Shown here: positions 28,254 to 61,325 of the stretch, piece after piece | How positions within the stretch are numbered: the stretch's first letter is position 1 | Layout of the letters: each line of letters begins with the position of its first letter | Assembly: GCF_036250755.1 (NCBI RefSeq) | Contig: NZ_CP109583.1 | Coordinates: 1,178,001-1,242,000 of the forward strand | DNA from: Streptomyces uncialis | Lineage (GTDB): Bacteria; Actinomycetota; Actinomycetes; Streptomycetales; Streptomycetaceae | Length of the DNA: 64,000 bases | Reading direction: 5' to 3' | Program-made: the position numbers and the translations under genes | Notes under the pieces: model-generated | Database searches by the model: none | Seen by the model: the letters and a program-made list of their open reading frames with translations, nothing else | Told to the model about the DNA's origin: nothing

Positions 28254-29009
<756 letters not shown>

Positions 29010-30706: not shown

Positions 30707-31303
30707 TCAGGCGCGGTTCTCGGCGCGGCGGCGCATCCAGAAGAGTCCGCCGCCGATGGCCGCGGCCGCGACGAGTCCGCCGCCGATCGCCATGTCGGTG
30801 GTGGTCGCGCCGGTCTCGCTGCTGCCGCCGAGTCCGCCGCGCACCCCGCCGATGATGGTGAAGGCGTGCGGACGGGTGATCCGTCGGCCGTCGCACTCGG
30901 CGGTGATCTCGTGCGATCCGGCGGAGGCGAAGCGGTGGACGGTGACGGTCGCCGTCGCGGAGCCCCGCCCACCGCCCCGGTCGTCGCGGCCGAGGCCGCT
31001 GAGCCGGGTGCGTTCGAAGGCGGGTGACTCCACGAAGCCGTTCTCGCAGGAGCGGCCGTCGACGGTGATGGTGAGCCTGCCGCCCGAGGCGATCACGCTC
31101 GGCATCGCGACGATGTTGCCCGGCTGGTCGCCGTTGCCACCGCCGAAGTTGTTGTTTCCGTTGTTGTTGCCGTTGTTGTTGCCACCACTGTTGTTGCCGT
31201 TGTTGTTGTGGTTGTTGTCGTTCCCGGCCGTCGCGGTGGGGGCGACGACCCCTACCGCGGCCACCACGACGGCCGAGACCGCCAGGGCACGAATTCTGCG
31301 CAT
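30707..31303 (-). CDS. Secreted Ig-like protein with Asn-rich linker and GLGG anchor (paralogue 2)
   Basis: A 198-residue secreted protein paralogous to the one at 30017. Signal peptide 1-26 (MRRIRALAV...PTATA) is followed by a striking Asn/Gly-rich stretch (about 27-62: NNHNNNGNNSGGNNNGNNN and so on), coded by AAC repeats. The domain MPSVIASGGRLTITVDGRSC matches TPSTIAAGGRITLHADGC of the paralogue. The end carries GVRGGLGGSSETGA, a hydrophobic helix (IGGGLVAAAAIGGGLFWM) and RRR. No classical sorting motif is present, although SETGA vaguely resembles one. It is divergent from the sortase gene. Confidence 0.8.
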   Translation of the reverse strand: MRRIRALAVSAVVVAAVGVVAPTATAGNDNNHNNNGNNSGGNNNGNNNGNNNFGGGNGDQPGNIVAMPSVIASGGRLTITVDGRSCENGFVESPAFERTRLSGLGRDDRGGGRGSATATVTVHRFASAGSHEITAECDGRRITRPHAFTIIGGVRGGLGGSSETGATTTDMAIGGGLVAAAAIGGGLFWMRRRAENRA

Positions 31304-31640
31304 GGGAATCCTCCGCTGGCAGGCGCCCCGGGGTACGGTCCCCGGTCGGTCGGCGAGAGCGCCTGTCGCAACCGACCCTCAGTTGGCGGGCCCGGGGGCG
31401 CATGTCGGGGCTCGTCCGTCCTGGTGAGCGACACGCCGGGGGAACGCCCGGCGCGCCGCAATCGCCGCAGGTCACGGACCGTCAGAAATTTCCTGCCCGG
31501 GGCGACTCGGATGGCGCACGGCGGTGCGGCCCCGCCACCCGTTCGCGCCCGCTCTGTCGCAGGCCGGGCGCGCGCGGCTTAGTTTGCTCGTAGGCACCGA
31601 GGACGTGATCCGCCGGGTCGTGTCGAGAGGGGATGGGCTG
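31304..31640. other. Divergent promoter region between anchored protein and sortase
   Basis: No gene is visible. It should hold promoters for both the Asn-rich protein (-) and the sortase (+), but I cannot assign -35 and -10 boxes with confidence. GAGAGGGGA at 31625-31633 is the sortase ribosome-binding region. Confidence 0.4.
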
Positions 31641-32306
31641 ATGTCTTCGTCCCAGCCGTTCGAGGCGGAACGGCCCAGGAAGCGCGCGCCGTGGGGCGTG
31701 ATAGCGCTGGTCCTGCTGACCGGTCTCGCGCTGATACGGAATGGATCGGGTGAGTTCGACACGGGTCCGCCGCAGCCCGCGTCGGCCGCGGCGGCGGACG
31801 GCCGGACGCCACGGACCGCCCCGGTGCCGGACAAGGAACTGGCGGCGCTGCCGTTCGCGCGCGCCGAGCGGGTCGCCATCCCGGCGATCCGGGTGGACGC
31901 GCCGATGATGCCGGTGCAGCTGGACGCGGAGGGGTGGGTGGACGCGCCACCGGCGGAGGACCCGAACCTGGCGGGCTGGTTCTCCGGCGCGGTCTCGCCC
32001 GGTGAGAAGGGCACCGCGGTCGTGGTCGGTCATGTGGACAACCAGCAGGGGCCGGCGGTCTTCTACGGTCTGGGGGCGCTGGAGAAGGGGAACAAGGTCG
32101 AGATCCAGCGGGCCGACGGGAAGACCGCGGTGTTCGAGATCTACGGGATCGAGGTCTACCGGAAGCAGGACTTCCCCGGGGAGCAGGTGTACGGCGGTAC
32201 GGGGTATCCGGAGGTCCGGGTGATCACCTGCGGTGGGGGCTTCTCCAAGCAGAGCGGGTACGACGGGAACGTGGTGGTGTTCGCGCGGATGACCGACATC
32301 CGCTGA
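31641..32306 (+). CDS. srtF: Class F sortase
   Basis: A 221-residue membrane-bound transpeptidase. A basic N-terminus (RPRKR) and one helix (18-33) anchor it. The catalytic domain starts near RVAIPAIRVDAPMMPV. Catalytic residues are H131 (VVGHVDN), C197 (VITCGGG) and R216 (VVFARM). The TC-GG context and short size fit the actinobacterial class F group. Class F enzymes have few defined substrates. Here two anchor-bearing secreted proteins sit immediately beside it and lack LPxTG, so they are candidate partners. ATG 31641 follows GAGAGGGGA. Confidence 0.88.
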   Translation: MSSSQPFEAERPRKRAPWGVIALVLLTGLALIRNGSGEFDTGPPQPASAAAADGRTPRTAPVPDKELAALPFARAERVAIPAIRVDAPMMPVQLDAEGWVDAPPAEDPNLAGWFSGAVSPGEKGTAVVVGHVDNQQGPAVFYGLGALEKGNKVEIQRADGKTAVFEIYGIEVYRKQDFPGEQVYGGTGYPEVRVITCGGGFSKQSGYDGNVVVFARMTDIR

Positions 32307-32486
32307 GGCCTCACGGGGTGCGGGTCGCCTTCGCTTGCGCCCCTGGGTGTCCTGTGCCGGGCGTACTTGTCCCCGCACAGGTCACCCCGCGCCCCTGGGT
32401 CAGCCCGGGTGAACGTCACCCCGTCCCGGCACGCACTCGGTGGGTGCGCGGTTCCCCGTCCGGCTGCGGACGGCCCTCGGTTGCTC
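32307..32486. other. Spacer between sortase stop and the repeat array
   Basis: No gene. It contains partial matches to the array core (CCGCGCCCCT at 32387-32396 and GCGCGGTTCCCC at 32446-32457), probably decayed or truncated units that do not keep the array spacing. Confidence 0.5.
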
Positions 32487-33217
32487 GCGCAGTTCCCCGC
32501 GCCCCTGGATGCTGCCCCTTCGAGCCGTCCGTCCGGTGCGGGCCGGCCCTCGCCTTTTGCGCAGTTCCCCGCGCCCCTGAAGTCGCGCCCCTTGCGCCAC
32601 CCGTTCGACTGCGGACGGCCCTCGGCTGCTCGCGCAGTTCCCCGCGCCCCTGAGATCGCGCCCCTTGCGCCACCCGTTCGACTGCGGACGGCCCTCGGCT
32701 GCTCGCGCAGTTCCCCGCGCCCCTGGATGCTGCCCCTTCAGGCCGTCCGTCCAGTGCGGGTCGGCCCTCGTCTTTTGCGCAGTTCCCCGCGCCCCTTTGG
32801 GGTCCTTGGCTGCTACGGGTGCTTCACTGCGGGCGGGGGCGCCCCGATAGGGGCGCGGGGAACTGCGCGAGCAACCACGAGCCACCCGCACACACACGAA
32901 CACAGCAAGGGCGCCCGAAGGGGCGCGGGGAACTGCGCATCCCACGAACGACCCGCACCCGACGAAGTACGGACAGCGGTACGGACCCAGGGGCGCGAGG
33001 AACCGCGCACCCACGGGACACCCGCACGGACGTAAGTACGCCCACCCGGGCAGACCCAAGGGGCGCGAGGAACTGCGCACCCACGGGATACCCGCAGGGA
33101 CGCAGGTACGCCCAGCCGGGCGGACCCAAGGGGCGCGGGGAACTGCGCACCCGCGAACGACCCGCACCCGACGGAGTACCGCCAGGGCACGGGCACCGGA
33201 ACGCGAGAACCGCTGGG
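32487..33217. repeat. Mirror-organised 70-73 bp tandem array (10-11 units)
   Basis: The 20-mer GCGCAGTTCCCCGCGCCCCT occurs on the plus strand at 32487, 32559, 32632, 32705 and 32777. It then occurs on the minus strand at 32849, 32919, 32989, 33059 and 33129, with a decayed copy at about 33198. Spacing is 72, 73, 73, 72, then 72 across the flip, then exactly 70 four times. Spacers in the left half are of two kinds ordered A-B-B-A; those in the right half are related to each other but not to the left half. The period is not a multiple of 3 and no frame shows protein-like sequence. The array fills the gap between the convergent sortase and deacetylase genes, and each half reads sense 3' of its own gene. 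Confidence 0.9.
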
Positions 33218-34111
33218 TCACACCCTTTCGCGTTCCGGGAGTGTCATCGTGTAGCCCTCCGCGAGGAGACCCGGGAGCCACGTCCGCAGCGCCCGGACCG
33301 TCTGCGAACGATCGCCCCCCGCGTCATGGGAGAGCACCACCACCCCGGGCCCCGCCCCCTCCCGCACGGCCCGGTTGATCGCGGTCGTACCGGGCGTCTC
33401 CCAGTCGACGGTGTCCACCGTCCACGCGAGCGGCTCCATCCCCAACTCCGCGCCGATCTCGAAGACCGCCCGGTTCCACGCCCCGTACGGCGCGCGGAAC
33501 CACAGCGGCGGCTCGCCGACGGTGCGTTCGATCATGTCGCTCGTGCGCTTCATCTCGGAGCGGATCGCGGCCCGCGACAGCGAGGGCAGCAGGGGATGGC
33601 TCCAGGTGTGGTTGCCGATCACATGTCCCTCGTCGGCCATCCTGCGCAGCAGGTGCTTGTTCCAGGGGATCTGCTCCCCGCAGACGAAGAACACCGCGGG
33701 CGTGTCGTGCGCGCGCAGCACCCGCAGGATGTCGGGCGTGTACGCGGGGTCGGGTCCGTCGTCGAAGGTGAGGACCATGGTGCGGCGGCCGCAGCTGTCC
33801 ACCCGCAGGATGGGGGCGCGGCGCACGGCGGGCCGGACGAGGGCACGGGTACGGGGGCGGGCCGGGGTGCCGTGCCCGGTGAGCGGCTGGAGCCGGTACG
33901 TGGAGGGCTTCATGGGCGCGATGGCCTGTGGTCCCGGCGCGGGACCACCGGTCGCTCCGGCCGCCGTACCCGTCGCGGCCGTACCGCTCGCGGCCCCGGC
34001 GGGCGGCCGGGCCCGGTCGGTTCCGAAGCAGCCCGCGGTGGCGGCGATTCCGAGGACCGCGGCGCCGCGCAACAGCGCCCTGCGGGCGGGGGTCGTCCGA
34101 TCGTCTTTCAT
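33218..34111 (-). CDS. Polysaccharide deacetylase (NodB family) lipoprotein
   Basis: A 297-residue exported deacetylase acting on N-acetylated glycans such as peptidoglycan or chitin oligomers (CE4). The signal (PARRALLRGAAVLGIAATAGC) combines a twin-arginine-like motif with a lipobox, lipidated at C28. Metal and catalytic residues are D117/D118 (LTFDDGPD) and H168/H172 (GNHTWSHP); RAPYG, DTVDW and VVLSHDAGG complete the NodB motifs. A Gly/Ala/Thr-rich linker (31-60) joins membrane and enzyme. The decayed last unit of the repeat array lies directly past its stop codon. Confidence 0.92.
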   Translation of the reverse strand: MKDDRTTPARRALLRGAAVLGIAATAGCFGTDRARPPAGAASGTAATGTAAGATGGPAPGPQAIAPMKPSTYRLQPLTGHGTPARPRTRALVRPAVRRAPILRVDSCGRRTMVLTFDDGPDPAYTPDILRVLRAHDTPAVFFVCGEQIPWNKHLLRRMADEGHVIGNHTWSHPLLPSLSRAAIRSEMKRTSDMIERTVGEPPLWFRAPYGAWNRAVFEIGAELGMEPLAWTVDTVDWETPGTTAINRAVREGAGPGVVVLSHDAGGDRSQTVRALRTWLPGLLAEGYTMTLPERERV

Positions 34112-34509
34112 GACTAATCCGTCGCACGGCGGAACCGTTCACCGGTTCACCAACACCGGAGCGGCGCGCGAATGCACCCGATGGGAGCAAGGGGCCCGCG
34201 TGGAGGGTGTGCCGACAGGGCGCGTGGCCGTCGCCCGCGCGCCGCCGCGACCGTCCGTGCGGGGGTGCGCAGTCTTTCACGCGTCCGCCGGGCGGCGGAG
34301 GGGACGCGCCGGTGCCCACGCGTCGCCCGCCGGTGCGCCGGTGCGCGCCGACGCACCGATCGCGCGCCCTCCGACCACCCCGGACCGTGGGCTTCCGGCC
34401 GCGCCCGACCGTGAACTGCCCGCCCCCGGGAATGGGGAGCTCCCGGCGACCCGGGCCGAGGAGTCCCCGCTACCCCCGCCGGGGATCTCCGGTCGCCCGG
34501 AAACCGGGG
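34112..34509 (-). other. Intergenic region upstream of the deacetylase
   Basis: No supported gene. GAACCG-TTCAC-CGGTTC at 34132-34148 is a perfect 6-bp dyad about 20 bp upstream of the deacetylase start and may be an operator. The rest is low-complexity, G+C-rich sequence. Confidence 0.4.
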
Positions 34510-60775: not shown

Positions 60776-61325
60776 TCACCGTCGCCAGGGCTTCGCGCCC
60801 CTTTCGGGGCGGGCCCGCCGGGTTGCGATGAGTAATCGGGTCACCGTCGGTCGGATTCGCGCCTCTTTCGGGGCGGCCCGGTTGTGGTTGCGGTGGGTTC
60901 CCGGGTCACCGTTGCCGGTCTTTCGCGCAGTTCCCCGCGCCCCTTTGGGGCACCCCTGTGGGGTTGCGGTGCCATTTCGGGTCACCGTTGCCGGTTTTTT
61001 GCGCAGTTCCCCGCGCCCCTGTCGGGGCACCCGATTGTGGTCGGGGTGCGTTCTCGGGTCACCGTTGTTGGGCTTTCGCGCAGTTCCCCGCGCCCCTTTG
61101 GGGCACCCCCGTGAGGTTGCGGTGGGTTCCCGGGTCACCGTTGCCGGTCTTTCGCGCAGTTCCCCGCGCCCCTTTGGGGCACCCCCGTGGGGTTGCGGTG
61201 CCATTTCGGGTCACCGTTGCCGGTTCTTTGCACAGTTCCCCGCGCCCCTGTCGGGGCACCCCCGTGGGGTGCGGTGGATGGTTGGCTCACCGTTGCCGGG
61301 CTATTGCTCAGTTTCCCGTGGCGCT
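60776..61325 (+). repeat. 65-77 bp tandem array (8 units) downstream of gnd
   Basis: Unit heads (TCACCGTTGCCGG) are at 60776, 60841, 60906, 60982, 61059, 61135, 61211 and 61287. Spacing is 65, 65, then 76, 77, 76, 76, 76. The core GCGCAGTTCCCCGCGCCCCT is intact at 60925, 61001, 61078 and 61154, has one change at 61230, and is decayed at 61306. The two leading 65-bp units lack about 11 bases of the core. After the core, TTTGGGGCACCCC allows a short GCCCC-TTT-GGGGC hairpin. No frame is coding. The same 20-mer forms the array at 32487, with different spacers. Bases 60668-60775 hold no gene. Confidence 0.9.

Follow-up and report, generated by a model that had tools for sequence, protein, structure and literature searches.

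REP sequences, together with BIMEs and REPINs, are the nearest known kind of element to the repeat family described here. REPs are short, high-copy extragenic sequences that are found mainly in convergent and co-directional gaps, form hairpins and occur as inverted pairs (PMC3733652, PMC4681348). In BIMEs the REPs alternate in orientation (PMC2817692). REPINs have two inverted arms around a spacer and form dispersed populations of near-identical copies (PMC8049555). Streptomyces is not mentioned in the passages of PMC3733652 that deal with end tags, with dimers of inverted units and with location past gene ends. A search of open-licence papers by string and by topic, in which the topic results were judged largely from listings, found no description of the present family.

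The locus under study is an array of a 20-mer in a 64 kb stretch of the Streptomyces uncialis chromosome (hereafter the window). Like REPs and REPINs, its family is high-copy and extragenic (1,380 copies; 4 of 90 clusters in called genes) and prefers gaps past gene ends. Each REP or REPIN unit is a palindrome of 20-40 bp, whereas the 20-mer is one arm and only an inverted pair forms a long stem; it also lacks the GTAG or CGTC end tag reported in the relevant part of PMC3733652. In contrast to the alternation in BIMEs, one plus block is followed by one minus block, and unlike REPs and BIMEs the family usually has one long core between the blocks. The REPIN plan of two inverted arms around a spacer in a dispersed, near-identical population is shared, but the core is ~160-300 bp, the arms are tandem-expanded and no Y1 transposase was found in the richest genome.

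Other known systems resemble the family in part. Like MITEs, including minisatellite-bearing ones in the cases covered by PMC4596501, it is non-coding, with terminal inverted sequence and internal repeat expansion; unlike MITEs, it showed no target-site duplication in 18 elements. As in VNTRs, close genomes differ in the number of units (here ~57-90 bp), but one family accounts for an estimated ~340 sites, and each site has two opposed arrays. The GC-rich hairpin without a U tract is like the U-poor Streptomyces transcript ends, which are not presented as a repeat family in the part of PMC8269248 concerned with them.

The array between the sortase and deacetylase genes

The array lies between two convergent ORFs, a sortase gene on the plus strand (31641..32306; Pfam PF04203, E 1.1e-22) and a polysaccharide deacetylase gene on the minus strand (33218..34111; PF01522, E 2.5e-38). 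Further left, an ORF with long proline-threonine runs is present at 28254-29009. Five exact plus-strand copies of the 20-mer are located at 32487..32506, 32559..32578, 32632..32651, 32705..32724 and 32777..32796 (the innermost plus arm). They are followed by five minus-strand copies at 32849..32868 (the innermost minus arm, exact), 32919..32938 (exact), 32989..33008 (two mismatches), 33059..33078 (one mismatch) and 33129..33148 (exact). All ten had been reported in the initial annotation, and its pitches were correct on measurement: 72, 73, 73 and 72 bp, then 72 bp across the flip and 70 bp four times. The A-B-B-A order that it gave for the left spacers was borne out (A/A 0.90, B/B 0.96, A/B ~0.6), and spacer comparison confirmed that the right spacers form a separate family. 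The window holds 15 matches at ≤3 mismatches against 0.11 expected. A second array, with five plus copies only and a pitch of 76-77 bp, was found by the 20-mer search at 60925..61249.

The element extends further left than the first reported copy. A truncated plus-strand copy is seen in the sequence at ~32446..32458, where S. uncialis DCA2648 has a full-length copy. A plus-strand stretch resembling outer module B (GGCGTACTTGTCCCCGCACAGGTC, 32360..32383) was read by comparison with element flanks, and a match to outer module A (GGTCGCCTTCGCTTGCGC, 32323..32340, plus strand) forms the left edge. The decayed minus-strand copy reported on the right (33197..33216) is plausible only when a gap is allowed; the ungapped match at 33199 has 12 mismatches. 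The regular pitch across the flip had been taken as spacing kept through an inversion. This is not the case: the 72 bp is a chance value, because the plus-to-minus distance ranges from 64 to 336 bp in 63 two-sided clusters of the same genome (72 bp in one, 60-80 bp in two).

A convergent deacetylase gene is present at 75 of 78 sortase loci found by a sortase search. The DCA2648 sortase is 100% identical in protein sequence to that of the window, and the surrounding 8.7 kb is 96.2% identical, array included; the DCA2648 gap measures 877 bp and holds copies in both orientations (six plus, four minus). The remaining 74 sortase-deacetylase gaps (one genome per species) are 18-217 bp long and all lack a 20-mer copy at ≤3 mismatches. 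The initial annotation had named missing conservation of arrays at orthologous loci in one of its refuting conditions, and conservation failed at all 74 of these loci. Because the 74 other gaps have no array, the one in the window is a lineage-specific insertion or growth. The 205 bp gap of Streptomyces ruber has one 20-mer match with four mismatches, perhaps a lone decayed arm.

A dispersed Streptomyces repeat family

At ≤1 mismatch the 20-mer occurs 1,380 times in the 9.26 Mb genome (706 and 674 per strand), and a reversed-pattern control gave no match in the same genome. The window array is one member of a scattered Streptomyces repeat family and is not unique. In a draw of 150 genomes of the genus, the own genome among them, this threshold gives one or more matches in 90 and none in 60; counts range from 0 to 1,380, the own genome being highest. 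Two others, G109 and G059, carry 980 and 861 copies, the DCA2648 genome has 1,387, and G255, from an order-level draw, has 1,243. Exact copies in G255 and G109 (472 and 310) are far fewer than those at ≤1 mismatch, which suggests a species-specific 20-mer variant. Outside the genus, a single match with one mismatch was found in one of 15 genomes.

The 20-mer is common to the genus, while between species the spacers differ, the inner sequence is unrelated and the pitch varies (57 in G059, 84 in G095). The core query gave two partial matches only in the 149 other genus genomes. Module A has 513 copies at ≤1 mismatch in the own genome; of 120 other genomes of the genus, seven have one match each, with one mismatch. 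Since both are nearly absent elsewhere, core and outer module appear lineage-specific and the 20-mer genus-wide. A plasmid or phage origin was rejected: blastn with the left array found no plasmid or phage match at E 1e-5 (simple-repeat filter on), and viral contigs contained no exact 20-mer and no exact core 22-mer.

Copy density in the own genome is 20-30 per 100 kb at 2-8 Mb vs 2.9 and 5.8 in the terminal bins. Among the sampled blocks, the seven that lie below 1 Mb contain 4 copies and the six beyond 8 Mb contain 7, compared with 76 in the fifteen between 2 and 4 Mb.

Element architecture

Element structure was read in a 1.624 Mb sample of the own genome, which combined the window with 58 20-kb blocks and a 400 kb stretch picked from a copy-dense part of the genome. 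Two blocks (L044 and L064) that overlap the 400 kb stretch were omitted from the module, order and gap-type analyses. The sample holds 408 copies at ≤3 mismatches in 90 clusters; 305 of the 408 are exact, and variation is frequent at two positions only (A to G at position 5, 46 copies; C to T at position 11, 62 copies). Read outside-in, the module order is A, B and C (the 20-mer), usually a core, and then C, B and A inverted, so the modules on the two sides are terminal inverted repeats of the kind expected of a MITE. Exactly one core was found in 57 clusters and none in 32 (window array included); one has an extra decayed match. The core occurs in either orientation. In the window array the arms are expanded and the core is lacking. 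With 1,380 copies at about four per cluster, the family is estimated to occupy ~340 sites.

The initial annotation had proposed a genome-wide check of orientation, and the result was a strong order: the plus block precedes the minus block in 63 of 63 two-sided clusters. The same order was read in 20 of 20 two-sided clusters of other species apart from G195 (6 plus 14, the 14 picked as two-sided from match lists). In G195 the order is reversed, with the minus arm ahead of the plus arm and 74-96 bp from it, in all five pairs read. In the own genome, 45 of 57 elements have more 20-mers 3' of the core than 5' of it, four have fewer and eight have equal numbers. The copy numbers of the two arms are uncorrelated (rho 0.01, 57 elements), and joint mirrored growth of the arms was rejected.

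Exact copies make up 114 of 126 innermost arms but 153 of 203 outer arms in the same clusters (p 0.00075); in one-sided clusters they number 38 of 79. Two deviations are common to paired arms vs 0.11 expected (p 0.019), which lends weak support to the pairing of arms. Target-site duplications were absent in 18 elements (mean 2.61 vs 2.85 shuffled), the element ends perhaps being inexactly placed.

The core and its variable tract

Alignment of 56 of the 57 cores (the other runs over the edge of a stretch; in one aligned row the core is deleted) shows a near-invariant scaffold with a variable tract, of which 49 distinct versions occur among the 57. In a separate alignment of centres, 6 of 36 plus-to-minus centres were left out as core-less. 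Among the cores of blocks L214-L233 and L033-L087, two linked scaffold variants are found, TGTCGGATC in 32 copies and CGTTGGAGC in 20, and some tracts are mosaic. Linked variants and mosaic tracts suggest shuffling within the core.

The core is predicted to fold into a hairpin that carries the variable tract near its tip. The hairpin stands as a prediction only, because none of 29 predicted pairs has changed on both sides, and a covarying RNA structure was rejected. A guide-like match of the tract to its own flanks was rejected as well: the mean match was 7.74 vs 7.95 for shuffled tracts, and 194 of 200 shuffles scored at least as high.

Change at fixed sites between two S. uncialis genomes

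By their two flanks, 26 clusters were mapped to S. uncialis DCA2648; the flanks average 99.46% identity. Copies are present in both genomes at 25 sites, and the 26th is a lone copy whose equal-length DCA2648 counterpart falls below the cut-off. At 21 of the 26 sites the two interval lengths are more than 2 bp apart (9 longer in DCA2648, 12 longer in the window genome), and the sign pattern differs at 18. Direct units are thus length-polymorphic between close strains, the property of a minisatellite or VNTR, with the caution that DCA2648 is a draft in which repeats could be misjoined. This is the main caution for all length and tract differences; the text consulted in PMC8210675 gives no sequencing method for DCA2648. 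The concern is eased because the 260 kb of DCA2648 sequence compared contains no N and the length differences go both ways.

Alignment of 20 core pairs revealed 98 substitutions over 2,348 positions; one pair has a 69-column deletion. Among 19 orthologous tracts, five are identical, three are one base apart and 11 differ by at least three bases or in length. Four of the 11 changed tracts recur exactly at a different locus in the sampled set of 57, which fits exchange between dispersed copies.

Placement at gene ends and predicted folding

Four of the 90 clusters are inside called genes, seven are at block edges and 79 were assigned to gaps. Convergent gaps hold 33, co-directional gaps 44 and divergent gaps two, vs 15.7, 46.9 and 16.4 expected (p 1.2e-7; expectation by gap number, with genes from a home-made caller). 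Both clusters in divergent gaps sit in gaps longer than 1 kb. The median distance to gene 3' ends is 133.5 bp (n=110). The initial annotation had each half of the window array oriented in sense with its own convergent gene. The array is indeed 3' of both genes, but an orientation set by them is not supported, because the plus-then-minus order is also found in co-directional gaps (44 of the 79 clusters).

The central pair (32777..32868), core-less here and without any core match, was said to be able to form a large stem, and the prediction supports this: the RNA fold is -74.7 kcal/mol (z -7.8) on the plus strand and -57.8 kcal/mol (z -5.5) on the minus strand. Single array units fold no better than shuffles on the left (z -0.40) and modestly on the right (z -2.1); the whole plus half is unremarkable (z -1.07). 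Because of this poor or modest structure, it is the innermost inverted pair and not the array that would have to carry any RNA role. An intrinsic terminator with a U tract was rejected, with no T-tailed candidate on 32200-33320 (shuffles 0.4). Rfam 15 gave no match at gathering score in the 64 kb window, where the core is absent, and chance-level matches only on 31000-34500; a known RNA family was rejected for the window array.

Discussion

The elements lie past gene ends, have one polarity and at most one clear core, and change fast in copy number and tract. The window array is probably a copy of an interspersed, non-coding, REP/BIME-like inverted-repeat family whose arms grow independently and whose copies exchange sequence. 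The founding unit in this lineage is [A-B-C] core [C'-B'-A'], with the 20-mer as C. Each arm may grow or shrink on its own by slippage or unequal exchange between direct units of ~70 bp. Neither process can make a second flip, and the outcome would therefore always be a plus block followed by a minus block. Dispersed copies would swap sequence by gene conversion, and the window copy would either have been without a core from the start or have lost it. The innermost pair could act as a bidirectional 3'-end hairpin, at which transcripts end or are protected from exonuclease, the outer copies being mostly by-products. Several results weigh against this explanation: the reversed order in the five G195 pairs, the missing target-site duplication and known transposase, and the fact that no empty site was found within the species among the mapped sites. 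The absence of covariation among the predicted core pairs and of a T-tailed terminator, the small number (two) of deviations that paired arms have in common, the draft state of DCA2648 and the home-made gene calls count on that side too. Against exchange in particular, only 4 of the 11 replaced tracts had an exact donor among the 57 sampled.

A second explanation, possible but clearly weaker, is that the elements are kept by host need as 3'-end RNA elements, i.e., bidirectional hairpin terminators or 3' protectors of the U-poor structured class. The bias against divergent gaps, the short distance to gene 3' ends, the strong inner hairpin on both strands and the better conservation of innermost arms all agree with it. 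Precedents exist in the U-poor structured 3' ends of Streptomyces, in the sections that describe them (PMC8269248, PMC12207403), and in the abundant S. coelicolor short RNAs of palindromic origin, many of which are in 3' UTRs according to the relevant portion of PMC4681348. However, avoidance of promoters alone would yield the same gap bias, a U tract is missing and the array units are not clearly structured. The genes do without the element: none of the 74 other loci carries it at these gene ends, and 60 of the 150 genomes of the genus lack the family at ≤1 mismatch. In both explanations the likely working part is the inverted pair and not the array, probably as a two-way 3'-end hairpin.

A further reading, unlikely in our estimate, is a self-shuffling repeat population without a RAYT. 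The core, in ~200 copies, would then be a hairpin-forming RNA or DNA scaffold whose tract moves between sites so quickly that most orthologous sites of two genomes 99.5% alike differ. Some recombination or retro-copying process would replace cores at fixed sites and also lengthen the arms, mainly on one side of the core.

We give rather little credence to a protein-binding array, in which the 20-mer at ~70 bp pitch would be the site of a putative nucleoid or chromosome-organising protein. Its near-invariance in the genome, its spread through the genus despite different spacers and the denser mid-chromosome copies would be expected of such a site. The strands show no bias, however, the pitch is not the same in other species, two near-identical genomes vary freely in copy number, and 60 of the 150 genus genomes have no match.

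Mobilisation as a REPIN by a RAYT (Y1 tyrosine transposase) is very unlikely. The high copy number, the intergenic placement at gene ends and the paired inverted arms, found in both orders across species, recall such elements, but PF01797 finds nothing in the own genome, the richest in copies of the 150, and a RAYT-driven REPIN is largely refuted there (the search control was found in 5 of 14). The domain is found in 46 of 150 genus genomes but not in G109 or G059 with their 980 and 861 copies, and the 20-mer has neither tag. The least credible explanation is targeted diversification, a core scaffold with an actively varied tract like a guide or diversity-generating element: 49 distinct tracts in a near-invariant scaffold and 11 of 19 orthologous tracts changed between 99.46% identical flanks would suit it, but 4 of the 11 recur at other loci, as exchange predicts, and the tracts match their own flanks no better than shuffles do.

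For practical purposes the element sites are useful in strain typing, act as assembly traps and may mark transcript ends. Polarity, one-sided arm growth and fast exchange provide testable handles on how short repeats expand and are homogenised in bacteria. Streptomyces genomes seem to hold their own large REP-like population, for which the richest genome lacks a known mobiliser. Conservation of the 20-mer throughout the genus, amid surroundings that change, points to something that recognises it.
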